The notes under the pieces: model-generated
Databases searched by the model: none
The model's input: the letters and a program-made list of their open reading frames with translations, nothing else
What the model was told of the DNA's origin: nothing
Position numbers and translations under genes: made by a program
Shown here: positions 29,914 through 37,458 of the stretch, in pieces
How the letters are laid out: each line of letters starts with the position of its first letter
Numbering within the stretch: position 1 is the first letter of the stretch
From: a bacterium
Lineage (GTDB): Bacteria; Arandabacterota; Arandabacteria; Arandabacterales; Arandabacteraceae
NCBI GenBank assembly: GCA_025774845.1
Contig: JALGZP010000043.1
Location: forward strand, 1-37,458
Direction: 5' to 3'
Length of the DNA stretch: 37,458 bases

Positions 29914-30435
29914 TCACATGCCGAGGCGGACTGCTGCACCCAGTGTTATGGTGTCGGTATCGATATCGATCTCTTCGTCCTTAAGATCGCCCCACTTGGT
30001 GAACCTGTAATTGGCGCTTATATCAAGCGCGATCGCCGGGATCAGGCTGAACTCCATCCCGGCGCGCAGGGCATAGAACGGCTCATCGGACCAGTCCCCG
30101 TCGGAGTAATACCAACCGACGCCGCCTGCCACCGTAATAGATTTTCCAAGGACGGCGTAGGCCTGTGGTGCATAGACCTTCTCGGAGGAACCCATAAAAC
30201 CCTCGGGCATGAACTCGAAGTCTGCCTCCCATCCGATCAGCTGGTCGCCTCGCCTCTGATAAGAGATAAACCAGGATGTCCCGTTTCTGTCGAATTCATC
30301 GAAATCGATATCATCGAGAGCATACCAGTAATTCAGTCCCGCCCCTATCCGGCTTCCTGCCTGTGCCCCGGTCAAACCACAGAAACCGATACACACCACG
30401 AGACCCAGAATCCATATTCTCAAGGTTGTTCTCAC
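29914..30435 (-). CDS. small outer-membrane beta-barrel protein
   Basis: 173 aa. The start is a GTG at 30435, six bases after AAGGAGG; an upstream in-frame ATG at 30525 has no ribosome binding site and would bury the signal peptide. Signal peptide: IWILGLVVCIGFCGLTGAQA. The mature chain alternates polar and hydrophobic or aromatic residues in about eight strands (IGAGLNYWYALDD, GTSWFISYQRRGD, WEADFEFMPEGF, ITVAGGVGWYYSDGDWS, FYALRAGMEFSL, ALDISANYRFTKW, DTITLGAAVRLGM), as in OmpW/OmpA-type barrels. It follows the B12-uptake genes by about 150 bp on the same strand; whether it belongs to that unit is open. Confidence 0.8.
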   Translation of the reverse strand: MRTTLRIWILGLVVCIGFCGLTGAQAGSRIGAGLNYWYALDDIDFDEFDRNGTSWFISYQRRGDQLIGWEADFEFMPEGFMGSSEKVYAPQAYAVLGKSITVAGGVGWYYSDGDWSDEPFYALRAGMEFSLIPAIALDISANYRFTKWGDLKDEEIDIDTDTITLGAAVRLGM

Positions 30436-30583
30436 GACATTCCTCCTTCGGCTTCCAGGGGTACCGAGCGTTACCCAGCTGTGCCCACCGGGCCAGCAAA
30501 GAAAAGTCTGCGTGCGAACCCGCACAATGTCAATACAGAAGTGATGTCAATGCCTGGCACGGCCGGCACCGAGGGAACAGAGG

Positions 30584-32068
30584 CTACCGTGTAACAATGA
30601 GCGGAAGAGCCCGCTTGCGACCTTCGACTGAGAGTCTGCAGAAATAGATCCCACCGGCAACAGGCTCACCATACCTGTCCCGGCCGTCCCAGTATGCGCG
30701 ATGGCTCCCGGCGGGCATGCCGCGATTCACAAGGGTTGAAACCAGTCGTCCAAGGGGATCATAGATGCTGATACGAACACCGGTACCCGATGCTTCACGG
30801 GGCACTGTAAACATGATGTTCGTTGCCTGTCTGAAGGGATTGGGATAGGTCCATGCCGTAAGCATTCCTGATTCGTGATCAGGTTGCGTTTCGGGATTCG
30901 TACCGGCCATTGGTGCCTGGATGAATGCGATATCAAAAGGCGGTATACCCACATCACGGAATGCGATCGCTGTATCCGCCACGGTGTCAAAGATGCGGAT
31001 ACCCGGCTGGGTGAGATCGCGGTCGCACAGGTAGAGTTCCCGCTGCCTGTTGAGTTCGATGGTGGCCAGTGAAGCGCCCATACCCGATGTCTGCCGGTGG
31101 AGGGTGTCCTTAACAACACGTGTAGCGCGGTCAAATACGACCAGGCGTCCATAGTTATCAGGCCAGGCCGCAGGATCGAGGACTACGGCATAACCCTTGC
31201 CGTCGGGCGCAAACAGACCGTCGGATATGTCACCCCCGAGCTCGGTCTCGGTTATGGCAACGCCATTGCTTTCAAGAGTCACTGGATTTATGGTCTCAAT
31301 CCCACCATCCAGAACCCCCCACGCACCAAGACATCCGATAACAAGTTCACCGCGGCAGCGGTCATATCTGATCTCGCTGTATGGATTGGGGAGCGCAAGT
31401 GTGATGGGCTGGATACCCGGGGCGAGTAAGTCACAGTCAATCAAGGTATCCGTCTCGGTATCGATTACAGCGATCTTACCCGGCCCGGCGGGGAGCCAGG
31501 TGAAACGGTCTATGTTGTTCAGGGTAACAAAGAGTCTGTTACCCACAATCTCCATGCGATCCATCTCGGGTATGCCGTCGGCGTCCGCAAGGGGTGAGAG
31601 ATCAATAGTTCCCAGAGAGTCCCCGGTATAGGGATGTACGATCAGGAGGGTCTTCCACTCATAGCGGGACACATAGGCCTTGGTCCCGCTCGCTAATCTT
31701 ATGTCATGAGGGTTGGACCCATTTCCGACTGAATACTGCCCGATCGTAGAGAAATCCTGACCGGCCTCGACAATCTGAATATTGTCGGCAAGATAGCGAT
31801 TGATGACGAAAATCATGTCTTCATCTACATCATAGTAGGCCAGAGGATCGCTGCTCACGGGTGCGATGCTTACATCAGCGGTCCGAGGTGGCCCGATCTC
31901 GATAGTCGAGTAATATGCGGCCGAGTAGTAATCCGTGGTCACGACAAATGCGTATTCCTCAGCCGGGAGTGCTGCTGCGATCACGACTACCACGAGTGCA
32001 GCTCCGGCAATGATTCTTATGAGTACTCCCATCCGAACGGGGGCGTGTGTGATGCTGAGTCTGTTCAC
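30584..32068 (-). CDS. BtuG-like YncE-type beta-propeller with FlgD/T9SS-type C-terminus
   Basis: 494 aa starting with GTG at 32068, seven bases after AAGGAGG, which overlaps the stop of the receptor gene. Signal peptide (GVLIRIIAGAALVVVVIAAA). Residues about 40-405 form a YncE-type beta-propeller (NPHDIRLASGTKAYVSRYEW, YTGDSLGTIDLS, GKIAVIDTETDTLID, APDGKGYAVV, GRLVVFDRATR). The C-terminal 75 residues are the FlgD/T9SS-type domain (TYPNPFRQATNIMF, YDPLGRLVSTL, GIYFCRLS). In Bacteroides, BtuG is a seven-bladed YncE-like propeller that binds cobalamin tightly and pairs with BtuB. Here the riboswitch and receptor upstream suggest the same job, which is an inference. BtuG is a lipoprotein; this one would instead use its C-terminal domain. 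Confidence 0.82.
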   Translation of the reverse strand: MNRLSITHAPVRMGVLIRIIAGAALVVVVIAAALPAEEYAFVVTTDYYSAAYYSTIEIGPPRTADVSIAPVSSDPLAYYDVDEDMIFVINRYLADNIQIVEAGQDFSTIGQYSVGNGSNPHDIRLASGTKAYVSRYEWKTLLIVHPYTGDSLGTIDLSPLADADGIPEMDRMEIVGNRLFVTLNNIDRFTWLPAGPGKIAVIDTETDTLIDCDLLAPGIQPITLALPNPYSEIRYDRCRGELVIGCLGAWGVLDGGIETINPVTLESNGVAITETELGGDISDGLFAPDGKGYAVVLDPAAWPDNYGRLVVFDRATRVVKDTLHRQTSGMGASLATIELNRQRELYLCDRDLTQPGIRIFDTVADTAIAFRDVGIPPFDIAFIQAPMAGTNPETQPDHESGMLTAWTYPNPFRQATNIMFTVPREASGTGVRISIYDPLGRLVSTLVNRGMPAGSHRAYWDGRDRYGEPVAGGIYFCRLSVEGRKRALPLIVTR

Positions 32069-32080
32069 GGTGATTCCTCC

Positions 32081-34177
32081 TTAAAGTCTGACCACGAGGG
32101 TCACGATTGTCGATCGACCCGGAAGCGGAAAGCCCATTACATCTTCATATTGCTGATTCGTTATGTTTCTCATCTCGATACCGAAACCGGTGTGCGGGAT
32201 ACCCGTCGGTACTTTCACGCCCGCGGCGTGCAGGCTGCGAGTTGCGAAGAGCGGACCCTTGTTATTGGGTGCGACGCCATTGTACGCATTCCAGTAGTTG
32301 CCCGAGATATGGTCGAATTCATAGAAGGCCGATGCCCCGCGGTACGACCACCTGACCGCGGCCGAAGCTTCGTCCCGAGGCCGGTTTGGCAGATGCTTGC
32401 CTGTCATGTAGGACACCGGTCCCGTATTTATAGCTGTAAGGTGGGTCAGGTTGGCCGATACTGTGAAGCCGCGCCAGGTGCCGCTTGAAATCGAACACTC
32501 ATATCCCTCGATTTCCGCACCGTCGATGTTGATGGCCTGGGCCGCCTGTGCGAAAGGCACGTAGACGAACATGATGAGGTCCTCTACATCAGACCAGAAG
32601 TACGCGAACTCAGCGGCGAGATATTGTCCGGCCCCGAATTGAAAGTCGTAACTGATACCCACGTCACGGTTGAGACCCCTTTCGGGTTTAAGCCCAGGGT
32701 TGGGTACCGTCATGCCGCGGTAGCCGAAGATTTCCATCAGGGACGGTATCCTGTATGAGCGACCGTAGTTGGCCTTGATGCTCAAGCCCGCCCCTGGAGC
32801 TGCAACCAGCCCGACCCTTCCTGATAACTCCGAATGGATGACGGTTGTATCAATGAGATCGCGGTTATACGTTGTCATATCGCGGCGTATCGTTTCAAAG
32901 GGCTGTGTACGATCTGTGTAACGCTCGTATCGACCCGTGGGCACGAGACGCAGGCGCTTCGTGATGAGGTTGATCTCATCCTCAAGATTGAGGACAAGTG
33001 TTCTCCTGGTTTGCCGTTCGCCTTGCTCGACATCGGTTCTTAACTCCTCGGGGCGAAACGCCTCCTGCCCGAACTCCACAAGACCCCGCAGGGTTTGCCG
33101 CCACTTAGAGAGAGGCAGCGACCAGCGCAGGTTTCCACCAAAGGACAGGGTACGATTCTTTTCATCAGGCTTGACACCGACCGTCTTCGGCCGGCGGTCC
33201 TCGAAGTGATCGCGCTGGTAGAGGTAGTAGAGACCCAGCCCTGTCCGGAGTCCGGCCGCGGCAGCCCAGCGCCTGCGCCAACCGATATGCGAGAGATCAT
33301 AGACTTTGGTGATACGTTCCGTTTGTGATTGTATGGCGCTGTAGCCGGGAAGTCCCTGACGGCGGTAGTAGAACTGGTTTGATGCGACCAGGGTACCACC
33401 CGAGAGAGGCCGGCTGACCTTGAGGAGTGCCTCGTACTCATCTACATCGTTGTTGATGCGCTCAACGGTCTCATCGTCATCCGGGTTATAGGGCGTACCA
33501 TTATCATCCAGGAACTCGAAGTTGTTCGCCGACGAGGTGGCGGTTGCGACGGCAAGCATGTCCCAGTTTGACCGGGAGAAGGAGTAACTTCCGTGGTATC
33601 TCGCCGTGGAGAGCGAGCCGTACGAGGCCGAGACCTGTCCACTTCCCGTATCAGCTGCTTTCCTGGTCACCAGGTTAACAACACCACCGATTGAGCTTCC
33701 TGAGAGATCGTACGGTCCGAAGCCTCGATAAACCTCAATCCTCGAAAGCGATGACACGGGAATATCGGCAAGATCGACGACACCACTCTGGGCCTGACCC
33801 AGTGGGATGCCGTCTAAGAACACACGGACCTGCTTTGCGGATGATCCCCTGACTGAAGCTGTGCTGTAGGTACCATAGCCGCCGGTCGAGCGAACATGAA
33901 CACCCACACTGCGGGCGAGGTATTCGGCGGCACTCGAGACCCGGTGACCGGTGTCATCCATGGGGATGATTGTGAGAAATGCCGGACGGTTTCTGAGTCC
34001 CTCTATCTCTGAGATCCGTTCGGCCTCGATAAGGATCTCCGGCAGAGTGAAGACTGTGTCCGGGAAGGCGCCGGTCTCTGAGGCCAGGCAGCAACTACGC
34101 CAGCATGGGATGAACGCAAAACCGGATGTAATCAGAGTGAGTGCAGCAAAGATCGTGAATGACGATGGCCGTTTCAC
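32081..34177 (-). CDS. btuB: TonB-dependent cobalamin receptor, BtuB-like
   Basis: 698 aa from a GTG at 34177, five bases after GGGGGG; an upstream GTG at 34210 has no ribosome binding site. Signal peptide SSFTIFAALTLITSGFAFIP. A TonB box-like VFTLPEILIEAERIS segment is followed by a plug (SSAAEYLARSVGVHVRSTGGYGTYSTASVRG, here several separate motifs; VRVFLDGIPLGQ; SSLSRIEVYRGFGPYDLSG) and a 22-strand-type barrel to the end (PGRSTIVTLVVRL). The protein transports a large nutrient through the outer membrane using TonB energy. The cobalamin riboswitch directly upstream names the ligand. It is cotranscribed with the propeller gene 12 bp downstream. No btuCDF inner-membrane transporter genes are in the window. 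Confidence 0.88.
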   Translation of the reverse strand: MKRPSSFTIFAALTLITSGFAFIPCWRSCCLASETGAFPDTVFTLPEILIEAERISEIEGLRNRPAFLTIIPMDDTGHRVSSAAEYLARSVGVHVRSTGGYGTYSTASVRGSSAKQVRVFLDGIPLGQAQSGVVDLADIPVSSLSRIEVYRGFGPYDLSGSSIGGVVNLVTRKAADTGSGQVSASYGSLSTARYHGSYSFSRSNWDMLAVATATSSANNFEFLDDNGTPYNPDDDETVERINNDVDEYEALLKVSRPLSGGTLVASNQFYYRRQGLPGYSAIQSQTERITKVYDLSHIGWRRRWAAAAGLRTGLGLYYLYQRDHFEDRRPKTVGVKPDEKNRTLSFGGNLRWSLPLSKWRQTLRGLVEFGQEAFRPEELRTDVEQGERQTRRTLVLNLEDEINLITKRLRLVPTGRYERYTDRTQPFETIRRDMTTYNRDLIDTTVIHSELSGRVGLVAAPGAGLSIKANYGRSYRIPSLMEIFGYRGMTVPNPGLKPERGLNRDVGISYDFQFGAGQYLAAEFAYFWSDVEDLIMFVYVPFAQAAQAINIDGAEIEGYECSISSGTWRGFTVSANLTHLTAINTGPVSYMTGKHLPNRPRDEASAAVRWSYRGASAFYEFDHISGNYWNAYNGVAPNNKGPLFATRSLHAAGVKVPTGIPHTGFGIEMRNITNQQYEDVMGFPLPGRSTIVTLVVRL

Positions 34178-34182
34178 CAAGA

Positions 34183-34188
34183 CCCCCC
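34183..34188 (-). promoter_or_regulatory. ribosome binding site that decides the btuB start
   Basis: GGGGGG on the minus strand, five bases before the GTG at 34177. The alternative GTG at 34210 lacks such a site. Confidence 0.6.
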
Positions 34189-34229
34189 GCTCGGTAAACG
34201 ATTTCACCACGGAGACTCTTGCGACCTAC

Positions 34230-34263
34230 AAAAAACCCGATCTTCACAGAATAAGAGATCGGG
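34230..34263 (-). terminator. intrinsic terminator: expression platform of the cobalamin riboswitch
   Basis: On the minus strand an 8-bp perfect stem (CCCGATCT / AGATCGGG, 12-base loop) is followed directly by TTTTTT. It lies between the riboswitch aptamer and the btuB start codon, so B12 binding would favour premature termination. Confidence 0.85.
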
Positions 34264-34299
34264 CCGCCCATCTCTTTGGCCACGAAGAGTTCCATGGGC

Positions 34300-34440
34300 C
34301 CTTCCCGGCAGGTCTCCTGACTTATGGCTCAGCCGCTCACCCTCGCCTTCCAGGTGGGGCCACCCGTGGCTATCTGAGGTTGAGCTCACCAATCACAGTG
34401 GCGGGACCGCGGAGGAATCGCACCTCACTTCCCTTTTCAG
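34300..34440 (-). ncRNA. cobalamin (B12) riboswitch
   Basis: The minus strand shows the aptamer consensus in order: AAAAGGGAAG, GAGGTGCGATTCCTCCGC, GTCCCGCCACTGT, then ATAGCCA, and the closing B12-box AGTCAGGAGACCTGCC (34307-34322). It controls the BtuB/propeller operon through the terminator at 34230-34263. Confidence 0.95.
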
Positions 34441-34484
34441 TCCCTACGGACACCGAGAAAGAGTATTCAGTTTTCTTGTCAACA

Positions 34485-34513
34485 AATCTATCAGGCTATC
34501 GCGCGGGTGTCAA
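34485..34513 (-). promoter_or_regulatory. promoter of the B12-controlled operon
   Basis: Minus strand: -35 TTGACA (34508-34513), 17-bp spacer, -10 TAGATT (34485-34490). Transcription would start near 34478 and run through the riboswitch. A second TTGACA lies at 34477-34482 without a matching -10. Confidence 0.6.
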
Positions 34514-34610: not shown

Positions 34611-35138
34611 CTATTCCGGAGGAAACTCCTCGAAGAGCTCGGTTACGGCTTCGAGAATCCTTGCCTCCATATCCCTTGGATTGTAGACCGCACCCACCGC
34701 CGTACCACGCCAGATGAGCTGCTTCACATCCGCATCGACCAGATCCAGTAGCAGAGTGCCTTCCTTGTACCTGTGGACATCGACGTGTCTTCCGACCCAC
34801 CGGCCTCTTGGACCGTAGCGGTAGCCGTGTGTGGTGACATCGACCTTGTTCTTGGATCCAATGTGATATGCAACGAGCAGGTCGGGCTTGCCCGCCGTTA
34901 CCCGCTCGTAACCCTTGACCGCAAGCTCGGCCTCAACAGCACCTCGAAGTCGCTTGTCAAAAAGCGTGGCATCGAAAGCTCGCCTCGGCGGGACTTTGGA
35001 TTTCTGCTTTATCCAGTCAAAGGTCTTGTATTGGGTGAAGTCGGTATCCTGATCATAGTCGGTGGTGACCGACATTGTTGCACAACCGTATGTGCCGCTC
35101 AGCATGAGCAGCACCAAAACCAGTGCCGGGTATTTCAT
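34611..35138 (-). CDS. DUF4136-type lipoprotein
   Basis: 175 aa from the ATG at 35138; GGAGGGAGGGA lies upstream, and an in-frame ATG at 35219 has no ribosome binding site. The signal peptide ends in lipobox GTYGC. The mature protein matches the DUF4136 pattern: TDYDQDTDFTQYKTFDWI at the start, then RLRGAVEAELAVKGYERV, DLLVAYH, a Gly/Tyr/Arg-rich loop (YRYGPRGRW), GTLLLDLVDADVKQLIWRGTA and a C-terminal helix (EARILEAVTELFEEFPPE). This family consists of small periplasmic lipoproteins of unknown function. It stands alone, divergent from the gingipain-type gene. Confidence 0.88.
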   Translation of the reverse strand: MKYPALVLVLLMLSGTYGCATMSVTTDYDQDTDFTQYKTFDWIKQKSKVPPRRAFDATLFDKRLRGAVEAELAVKGYERVTAGKPDLLVAYHIGSKNKVDVTTHGYRYGPRGRWVGRHVDVHRYKEGTLLLDLVDADVKQLIWRGTAVGAVYNPRDMEARILEAVTELFEEFPPE

Positions 35139-35241
35139 TGGACGTCCCTCCCTCCACGCCGGATGTTCGCATATGGCAAACTGGTTGGCAAACCAAAACC
35201 ATATTGCCTGTTTGCTCATGCCCTGAGGACCCGGTGCAGTC

Positions 35242-35356: not shown

Positions 35357-37458
35357 ATGCACTCACGCTTAGCGGGCCGTTGGCAGACGACCGGTATCAC
35401 GTTCTGGATGCTAGTACTTGCCCTGACCATTTTGATAGCGCTTCCATGTATTTCGTTGGGTAGGAGTCTTCAGGCACAGGTGAAAAGTCAGACAGACGGT
35501 GCTGTTATCGAGACACGCGTCGCTCTTTCCTTCTCGCAGGACGGTCTGAGCTTCAGTAGTGTTGATGGTTACGATGCGGTGCATCTTGAGGATGCCTCCT
35601 ACCTTGCCGAAGCAGGCAAGCCCAGGTTACCGGCAGCCACTATGTGGGTCGCGCTCCCTGCCGGAATGACCGTAACCGGCGTCCGCGTGATCGACGTCGC
35701 GACGGAGGAGATTCCCGGTCGTTTTCTTGTCGCGCCAGCCCAGCTCCCGCGGCCCATGACATCAGCCATACCCTATGACGCGACGCTGAAACCTGATGCC
35801 GCTTTGTATGCATCGTGCACACCATACCCCGTTGAGCGAGTTGAGTTTCTGCGCCAGGCCGACCTTGCAGGTCAGAACATCGCGGCATTTCATGTGCGCC
35901 CCGTTCGCTACGTCCCCTCGGAGGGCAGGCTCACGCTTGCTACGCGTATTGAGATGGTGATCGAGGGAACAGAGGGAAGGCAGTGTGGTGATTATCTGCC
36001 TCGAAACCTCCGGAGCGACTCTCGGGTGACATACGAGCAGCGACTCAAGACAATGGTCGTCAATCCCGAGGACGTCGAGCTCCGGACTGTCTTTGGGCCA
36101 CAACCGATGGGAGTCGATCCGGATCAGTATGATTATGTGATCATAACGTCTGAGGCTCTGAAGCCCGGGCTTGAGGAACTTGCCGACTGGAGAACGCGGC
36201 AGGGGCGACGGGCAACCATCGTGACCACCGAGTGGATCTACACCAGCGGAGGCTACACCGGTACCGATATTGAGATGATCAGAGCGTTCGTGGCCGATGC
36301 CCACGCCAACTGGGGCGCTACCGATTTCCTGCTCGGAGGAGAGTCCGACATCATCCCCTACCATATCCGGACGATCACGGTCCCGGAATACTGGACCGAT
36401 GACATTGCGAACGACACCTACTACGGCGATTACGATGACGACTGGATACTTGAAGTCAACATCGGCAGGATATCTGTACCATCTGCTTCAGCGGCCAGGA
36501 AATTCAAAAACAGGGTACTGATATATGAGAGAACTCCACCGCTGACCGGTTATGCGAAGACGGCCCTTCTTCTCGGTTTTGATACTCAAGCATGCAACGA
36601 TCTTGATGGCGAGACCTTCCAGGAGGACTATATCCGCACGCCGTTTATTCCGGGAACGTGGAGTATTGACACCGAGTACGACAGCGAGCCGGGTACCCAC
36701 AGGGGTGACGTGATCGCTTACCTCAACCAGGGTTATCACCTTGTGAACCACTATGACCACTGCAACACAACCGTTATGGCTATGGGCTGGAACTGCCACA
36801 CCGAGGACATAACCTCAGCTGACATGGATGCTCTCACTAATGGCGATCGGCGGAGTATCCTCTTCCCTATCGGCTGCTTTCCTGCCGATTTCCGCACGTT
36901 CAAGTGTATCGGTGAGGCTGCAACCACCAATCGATTCGGCGGGAGCATTGCCTTCATAGGCAATACCTGCTACGGGTGGGGAGGCCCTATGGGAGATATG
37001 GCCCACTATACATGTGCTCAGAACGAAAACTTCTACCGGAACCTCTTCGATCTGGGTATGACATCTCTGGGGGATAACTTCTCGCTGGCGAAGAACGACC
37101 AGTATGACCCTTATGATCCTTACAACCTCAATATGTATTGCTTCACGGAACTTCATCTCCTCGGGGATCCGGCACTCACTGTCTGGACGGATGATCCCGA
37201 CAGTCTTGTTGTTACCCACCAAGAGGGCCTCTTGCCCGGAAATCCGGTCACATTCCCCGTCGATGTGTATGGCGGCGGAGGACCAGTCGACGGCGCGACG
37301 GTCTGTCTGTATAAGGACGATGACGTCTATGAAGTGGGAGTGACCTCAGGAGGAATAGCATCGTTCGGATTTACTCCTGCAACCGAGGGAACGCTCCTCG
37401 TAACTGTCTGTCATCAGAACTGCATACCGTATGAGGGCTTTGCCGTCGTGAGTGCCAG
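35357..37458 (+). CDS. gingipain-family (C25) cysteine protease, 3' end outside the window
   Basis: At least 700 codons, open to the right edge. The ATG follows AGGAGGT (35344-35350) by six bases. A hydrophobic segment (about residues 15-32) is the signal peptide. Residues about 45-225 are a propeptide-like region as in gingipains. The catalytic domain follows: DYVIITSEALKPGLEELADWR, ADAHANWGATDFLLGGESDIIPY, a candidate catalytic His465 (LVNHYDH) and Cys507 (PIGCFPADF), GGSIAFIGNT and ELHLLGDPAL, then an Ig-like domain (NPVTFPVDVYGGGGPVDGATV). Family members are secreted, usually self-processing, cysteine proteases. The C-terminal domain, which could be FlgD/T9SS-type, is not in view. Confidence 0.88.
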   Translation, partial: MHSRLAGRWQTTGITFWMLVLALTILIALPCISLGRSLQAQVKSQTDGAVIETRVALSFSQDGLSFSSVDGYDAVHLEDASYLAEAGKPRLPAATMWVALPAGMTVTGVRVIDVATEEIPGRFLVAPAQLPRPMTSAIPYDATLKPDAALYASCTPYPVERVEFLRQADLAGQNIAAFHVRPVRYVPSEGRLTLATRIEMVIEGTEGRQCGDYLPRNLRSDSRVTYEQRLKTMVVNPEDVELRTVFGPQPMGVDPDQYDYVIITSEALKPGLEELADWRTRQGRRATIVTTEWIYTSGGYTGTDIEMIRAFVADAHANWGATDFLLGGESDIIPYHIRTITVPEYWTDDIANDTYYGDYDDDWILEVNIGRISVPSASAARKFKNRVLIYERTPPLTGYAKTALLLGFDTQACNDLDGETFQEDYIRTPFIPGTWSIDTEYDSEPGTHRGDVIAYLNQGYHLVNHYDHCNTTVMAMGWNCHTEDITSADMDALTNGDRRSILFPIGCFPADFRTFKCIGEAATTNRFGGSIAFIGNTCYGWGGPMGDMAHYTCAQNENFYRNLFDLGMTSLGDNFSLAKNDQYDPYDPYNLNMYCFTELHLLGDPALTVWTDDPDSLVVTHQEGLLPGNPVTFPVDVYGGGGPVDGATVCLYKDDDVYEVGVTSGGIASFGFTPATEGTLLVTVCHQNCIPYEGFAVVSA

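Follow-up and report, generated by a model that had tools for sequence, protein, structure and literature searches.

The DNA analyzed here (the window) is a stretch of 37,458 nucleotides from a bacterium of the Arandabacterota (contig JALGZP010000043.1 of assembly GCA_025774845.1), and at positions 30,584 to 34,513 it carries a locus that probably encodes a BtuB/BtuG-type importer of vitamin B12 (cobalamin), with type IX secretion in place of lipidation for the export of its lid. The BtuG of Bacteroides is a lipoprotein at the cell surface. In the window, a cobalamin riboswitch heads genes for homologues of BtuB and BtuG in that order, the BtuG-like beta-propeller protein has no lipobox and ends in a tail of the type found on cargo of the type IX secretion system (T9SS), the genome encodes T9SS components, and the linkage of riboswitch, receptor, and propeller is deeply conserved. 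The propeller would bind B12, reach the cell surface by way of its tail, and act there, by analogy with the Bacteroides system, as a lid in complex with the BtuB-like barrel. The locus is transcribed from the minus strand in the order promoter-like site, riboswitch, hairpin, receptor, propeller, with the following features:

34485 to 34513, minus strand: sigma-70-like promoter (TTGACA-17-TAGATT) upstream of the riboswitch, from a promoter scan.
34290 to 34472, minus strand: cobalamin riboswitch aptamer RF00174, a full-length covariance match.
34230 to 34263, minus strand: intrinsic terminator of the riboswitch, with a stem of 8 bp, a loop of 12 bases, and a run of six T, from sequence and fold.
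32081 to 34210, minus strand: BtuB-like TonB-dependent receptor of 709 amino acids, from its open reading frame (ORF) and domain matches.
30584 to 32068, minus strand: BtuG-like propeller protein of 494 amino acids with a GTG start, from its ORF; AAGGAGG site, no lipobox.
31961 to 32068, minus strand: putative signal peptide region (about residues 1 to 36) without cysteine, read from the hydrophobic N terminus.
30914 to 31954, minus strand: BtuG-like beta-propeller domain (residues 39 to 385), from profile and structure comparison.
30587 to 30862, minus strand: FlgD_ig/T9SS type A-like C-terminal tail (residues 403 to 494), from domain and profile matches.

The preliminary description of this locus, made from the sequence alone, had named a cobalamin riboswitch ahead of a TonB receptor, and the covariance search bears this out: the RF00174 match scored 118.6 bits (gathering score, 31.5; E value, 2.2e-29), is above the threshold, covers model positions 1 to 189 of 189, and is the sole cobalamin riboswitch match in the genome. 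The terminator that it placed next fared less clearly. A hairpin followed by six T is present between aptamer and btuB (minus-strand arms CCCGATCT [34263-34256] and AGATCGGG, separated by the 12-base loop, with the T run at 34235-34230) and forms in the computed fold, but its strength is no better than that of shuffled sequences (z = −0.88), and the consensus terminator scan does not list it because its loop is longer than 8 bases. The promoter-like site is weak, since one such site was found and 0.4 were expected by chance. As described, the propeller gene begins 12 bases past the btuB stop codon, and its ribosome-binding site lies just upstream of the GTG; an alternative start of the receptor is an internal GTG at 34177, behind a G-rich run. 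Also correct were the lack of a lipobox, since the first cysteine of the propeller protein is residue 212, and the FlgD/T9SS-type tail, which matches FlgD_ig (PF13860) over residues 417 to 478 with 30.0 bits (cut-off, 27). To call the locus a complete B12 uptake unit was too strong, as riboswitch, BtuB-like receptor, and propeller are present but the searches of the window yielded no btuF or btuC.

The identity of the propeller was approached by sequence profiles and by fold. A single-sequence phmmer search of PDB at an E value of 1 returned relatives of the tail only (FlgD, PorU) and no BtuG. A nine-member profile returned nine PDB sequences of the BtuG group, and the propeller stretch matched nothing else at an E value of 1. 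With a propeller-only profile of 60 sequences, the same nine took the top places (E values of 5.5e-8 to 8.3e-7), followed by another protein at 0.0056. For seven of them the title or a report gives BtuG as the identity, and we judged the other two (8puj and 8baz) to be BtuG because their scores and lengths are near-identical. No match to PF16819, which we take to be the family covering BtuG, was present among the Pfam matches of the nine propeller members. The predicted structure of the propeller domain (mean predicted local distance difference test score [pLDDT], 94.8) was compared by Foldseek, which placed BtuG chains at ranks 1 to 12 and 14, the archaeal propeller 1l0q at rank 13, the siderophore-binding lipoprotein XusB at ranks 15 and 16, and YncE lower. 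By a second structural aligner, the 11 best entries were all BtuG (Z scores of 29.7 to 31.7, 299 to 304 residues aligned, root mean square deviation of 2.8 to 2.9), and lactonase-type propellers reached Z scores of 28.4 or lower. An earlier full-length model (pLDDT, 78.4) gave a similar order, but with 1l0q first in Foldseek. Identity to BtuG in the structural alignments is 14 to 18%. Since the fold alone is insufficient to decide between BtuG and 1l0q, we based the assignment on the profile, the neighboring gene, and the riboswitch together. BtuG is characterized by its fold, its sequence, adjacency to btuB and a riboswitch, a lipobox, very tight corrinoid binding, and a stable complex in which it caps the BtuB barrel. 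The window protein has the propeller fold and the sequence homology, and its gene adjoins btuB in a locus headed by a cobalamin riboswitch; it lacks the N-terminal lipobox cysteine and the lipoprotein export signal, and it was therefore filed as BtuG-like and not as BtuG.

The receptor matches the Pfam families Plug and TonB_dep_Rec, both above cut-off. Against TIGR01779, the equivalog of B12 receptors such as Escherichia coli BtuB, it scored 121.7 bits (cut-off, 599.7), and its best NCBIfam matches were TonB receptors of several kinds, none of which reaches its cut-off among the matches listed. When a profile built from nine BtuB-like receptors was searched against PDB, the order was 9gbc (a TonB-linked outer membrane receptor listed without a named ligand), BtuB1, BtuB2, and BtuB3 of Bacteroides thetaiotaomicron (places 2 to 5), E. 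coli BtuB, and the colicin I receptor. We call the window receptor BtuB-like because it misses the TIGR01779 cut-off, even though the three Bacteroides BtuBs rank near the top. It shares plug and barrel homology with E. coli BtuB but, judged by the profile, is nearer to those BtuBs that are partnered with BtuG.

The linkage of the three elements was followed through related genomes (designated here by G numbers, and fetched loci by L numbers). The collection returned 80, 4, 3, and 1 genomes per phylum for 200 to 300 asked, with few relatives of the window's own class. Within that class, a BtuB-like ORF lies just ahead of the propeller in all five other propeller-bearing genomes. Of nine loci fetched from this class and from four further genomes, eight contain RF00174, and the contig of the ninth ends first (L002 and L003 duplicate the contigs of G003 and G002, and each was counted once). 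Among the 80 genomes in the phylum of G032, 65 encode the propeller and 70 have a cobalamin riboswitch; 53 of the 68 propeller matches have a co-oriented riboswitch 2,119 to 2,463 bases upstream, which leaves room for a btuB gene. The remaining 15 are mostly near contig ends or short partial matches, with G134 as a complete exception whose riboswitch lies elsewhere. Upstream BtuB-like ORFs were present in 62 of 68 fetched places (66 in the G032 phylum and two in that of G049), and the six places without one comprise four that run off the contig, a second copy in G132, and a weak match in G075. Two matches of the G032 phylum shorter than 400 bases (G117 C65 and G096 C69) were left out of the BtuB and tail counts.

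Among 386 genomes comprising relatives at all depths, 95 had some propeller match. From 34 of these, 35 places were fetched, several weaker ones (e.g., G446, G188, G270, G319, and G269) being left out. RF00174 was found in 27 of the 35 (17 of 19 and 10 of 16 loci), co-oriented and upstream in all 27, and a BtuB-like ORF was also found in 27. Among the eight places without RF00174 and the eight without a BtuB-like ORF, some are at contig ends and others are weak matches, which may be other propellers. The propeller is mostly present in a single copy per genome. Given roughly one such riboswitch in each multi-megabase genome, the linkage is not due to chance. Overall, at least five phyla besides Bacteroidetes pair BtuB with a BtuG-like neighbor under the same riboswitch; they are taken not to be Bacteroidota because each is small in the collection (80 genomes or fewer). 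Two variants of the arrangement were observed. At L036, L199, and L200 (G047, G352, and G219), two different propeller copies follow BtuB in tandem and perhaps serve as two lids or as a lid and a carrier; at L191 and L192 (G374 and G239) the order is reversed, with the riboswitch directly ahead of the propeller and BtuB after it.

In three lineages with tailless propellers, the rest of a B12 import pathway adjoins the locus. G047 has one riboswitch followed by homologues of btuF, btuC, btuD, and btuB and the two propeller copies; G021 has btuF, btuC, btuD, btuB, and the propeller; and G049 has riboswitch, btuB, propeller, and a TonB gene, with btuF, btuC, and btuD adjoining on the opposite strand. 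These calls rest in part on Pfam and otherwise on BLAST matches, and the riboswitches on RF00174. On gene content, these lineages settle that the pathway of the locus is B12 uptake. A dedicated btuFCD operon at the tailed loci was considered and rejected, as only receptor and lid are found at those examined (to about 19 kb).

The tail resembles that of T9SS type A cargo (TIGR04183/PF18962; FlgD_ig PF13860) in being a C-terminal immunoglobulin (Ig)-like domain with a PNP start, in a genome that has SprA (SprA_N; E value, 1.7e-28), PorU (508.5 bits; cut-off, 420), and a PorV family protein (206.8 bits; cut-off, 90). At least 26 matches to the tail module occur in the window's genome, and among the matches listed, nearly all are to the tail only. 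The idea that the tail is a specific feature of B12 uptake was rejected because it is a genome-wide module. In the G032 phylum, all 59 propeller proteins with a complete C terminus carry the tail. Lipobox-like motifs were found by a regular-expression scan in 6 of 68 N termini; we did not count these as lipoproteins because four are tailed and two are cut off before the tail, although some may be lipoproteins. SprA_N was found in all five genomes of the window's class with a complete tailed protein and in 51 of the 58 genomes of the G032 phylum that have tailed propellers; none of three tailless genomes tested had it. Tails also occur in further families (e.g., G298, G425, G190, G282, G451, G325, G239, and G235), and most lineages that lack a tail have a lipobox (e.g., G318, G369, G021, G047, G240, and G414). 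A side observation concerns L188, L190, and L196 (G211, G448, and G345), in which a long extra region without a Pfam match lies between lipobox and propeller. In the window, a C25 (gingipain-family) peptidase with an Ig-like domain (36122-37456, plus strand), which reaches the contig end, is probably itself T9SS cargo.

The anchor types were also placed on a tree of 45 propellers, which omits four domains (G047_2, G335, G149, and G411). Its proteins comprise 24 tailed, 18 lipobox-bearing, and 3 with neither. States were read from the termini, with judgement calls for G374 (divergent tail) and for G241 and G311 (atypical lipoboxes). This tree requires four switches between tail and lipid anchor, of which its starred branches force only one, and repeated swapping of the two is suggested. 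The simplest reading is that the type of anchor would follow the export machinery of the lineage. G235 has both kinds: its tailed copy is accompanied by riboswitch and BtuB, and the other, elsewhere in the genome, bears a lipobox (L197 and L203). With these results, the likeness to BtuG that the preliminary description had proposed, and for which it had suggested structure prediction as a check, is upheld by both fold and sequence profile, while its label "YncE-type" correctly named a propeller but was too loose, given that Foldseek ranks BtuG well above YncE. Its proposal that the binding protein is placed differently agrees with the tail standing in the place of the lipobox across the G032 phylum. 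A propeller equally common beside unrelated TonB receptors, which it had named as a counterargument, was not what we found; the propeller sits by BtuB-like receptors under cobalamin riboswitches.

Several results weigh against a T9SS-exported BtuG-type lid at this locus. The sequence match to BtuG spans only about 115 of 337 profile positions, and the window propeller has no Pfam match at an E value of 1, whether to PF16819 or to any other family. The archaeal YVTN propeller 1l0q (Z score, 29.6) is level with the lowest BtuG entry. Trp194 of BtuG2, which narrows the ligand cavity (numbering derived from the residue range of the PDB entry), aligns with Gln or Asn in the propeller profile alignment; the ligand cavity would therefore differ here, and the mechanism should not be transferred too simply. 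Neither btuF nor btuC turned up in the window or near the tailed loci examined (to about 19 kb), where there were generic ATPase matches only. The tail scored 21.4 bits against the T9SS type A sorting domain TIGR04183, just below the cut-off of 23, and 7 of the 58 tailed genomes (drafts of varying completeness) have no SprA_N match.

The last two points, together with FlgD_ig being the best Pfam match of the tail and with the single lineage of G049, G141, and G143 that has neither tail nor lipobox, would fit a BtuG-like corrinoid binder whose tail is simply an Ig domain of the FlgD type and does not work as a T9SS signal, with the protein periplasmic or released. We consider this unlikely: of five relatives, two close ones reach the TIGR04183 cut-off (28.8 and 23.2 bits) while three miss it, the same module is on many other proteins of the genome, SprA, PorU, and PorV are present, and the tailless lineages mostly bear a lipobox. 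Far less probable is that the pair imports a different ligand, such as the siderophore of XusB (9hqk and 9hqe), a propeller lipoprotein of a Bacteroides uptake system. XusB is among the next Foldseek neighbors after BtuG and the receptor falls short of the B12 equivalog, but a cobalamin riboswitch heads the locus here and in most relatives, the BtuG group tops the PDB search with the propeller profile and stands above XusB structurally, and the BtuBs outrank named siderophore receptors, the first match 9gbc having no named ligand. That the propeller merely shares the transcript, as a generic protein of the surface-layer or YncE type, is the most improbable of the three since, common as the fold is (1l0q and lactonase-like propellers reach Z scores of 28 to 29.6), the linkage to riboswitch and BtuB recurs across phyla, mostly in single copy per genome, and the sequence similarity is specific to BtuG.

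For the BtuB/BtuG-type importer with a T9SS-exported lid, we propose the following course. With plentiful cobalamin, the riboswitch would halt transcription via the terminator hairpin, as in a B12-repressed corrinoid-uptake operon; when cobalamin is scarce, the BtuB-like TonB-dependent barrel and the BtuG-like propeller would be made together. Outside the cell, the propeller would catch corrinoids and cap the barrel as a lid, the role that BtuG has in Bacteroides. Its C-terminal tail would replace the N-terminal lipid anchor and take it across the outer membrane through SprA, PorU would then cleave the tail, and the propeller might be held at the surface by PorV and lipopolysaccharide or by the barrel itself. 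The lid action would, by homology, be that of BtuG, with the hinge or tether at the C-terminal end or with the barrel alone holding the lid.

The closest known systems are the BtuB1/2/3-BtuG1/2/3 pairs of B. thetaiotaomicron (PMC6143338 and PMC10404256), which share with the window a cobalamin riboswitch, a receptor gene beside that of a BtuG-fold propeller, and homology of both partners. They differ in that the window protein has a FlgD/T9SS-type tail instead of a lipobox and lipoprotein export signal, comes from a different phylum, is only 14 to 18% identical, and does not keep Trp194 in the profile alignment. The Bacteroides lid is described as catching B12, closing over BtuB, and ceding B12 to the barrel with the help of loop EL8, and the linker by the lipid anchor as a possible hinge (PMC10404256). 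Change of Cys-32 of BtuG to alanine abolished detectable protein, and BtuG purified from E. coli failed to restore growth; the known lid thus relies on its lipidated N terminus (PMC6143338). An anchor at the opposite end would allow the need for an N-terminal hinge in the lid mechanism to be tested directly.

The same papers hold BtuG homologues to be exclusive to Bacteroidetes, from BlastP at 1e-10 against 313 gut genomes (PMC6143338), and lipoprotein-capped TonB transporters to be seemingly exclusive to them (PMC10404256), with which the presence of the propeller in 65 of 80 genomes of one other phylum contrasts. A wide spread of B12-scavenging proteins is already in print, as PMC13398666 describes B12 binders of the DUF4465 type from eight clades, frequently next to the propeller family PF16819. 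Our literature searches turned up no T9SS cargo that acts as a TonB receptor lid and, going by the search listings and the BtuG passages of PMC11287211, no paper on tailed or non-Bacteroidetes BtuG. The BtuB/BtuG-like pair with its predicted new lid placement is widespread and probably old. On balance, we lean toward regarding BtuG-type lids as an old, multiphylum part of B12 uptake and not a Bacteroidetes invention, with an interchangeable route to the surface (lipid anchor without T9SS, T9SS tail with it) and with the tailed form as the first T9SS cargo to act as a lid for a TonB-dependent transporter. Uncultured lineages hold many anonymous proteins with T9SS tails, and one of these would thereby gain a likely role.

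Three further genes stand near the locus. A small outer-membrane beta-barrel-like gene (29914-30525, minus strand) follows the propeller in the same direction after 58 bases; its Pfam match is below cut-off, and the scans of relatives, none of which was aimed at such a gene, name none. Directly upstream of the riboswitch is a gene for a DUF4136 protein (34611-35219, minus strand), and since DUF4136 is also found near the locus in G002 (L042) and G001 (L040), it is possibly a conserved neighbor. Two relatives from the window's family have a gene for a MatE-family transporter close to the locus (8870-10222 in L041 and 14751-16133 in L042).

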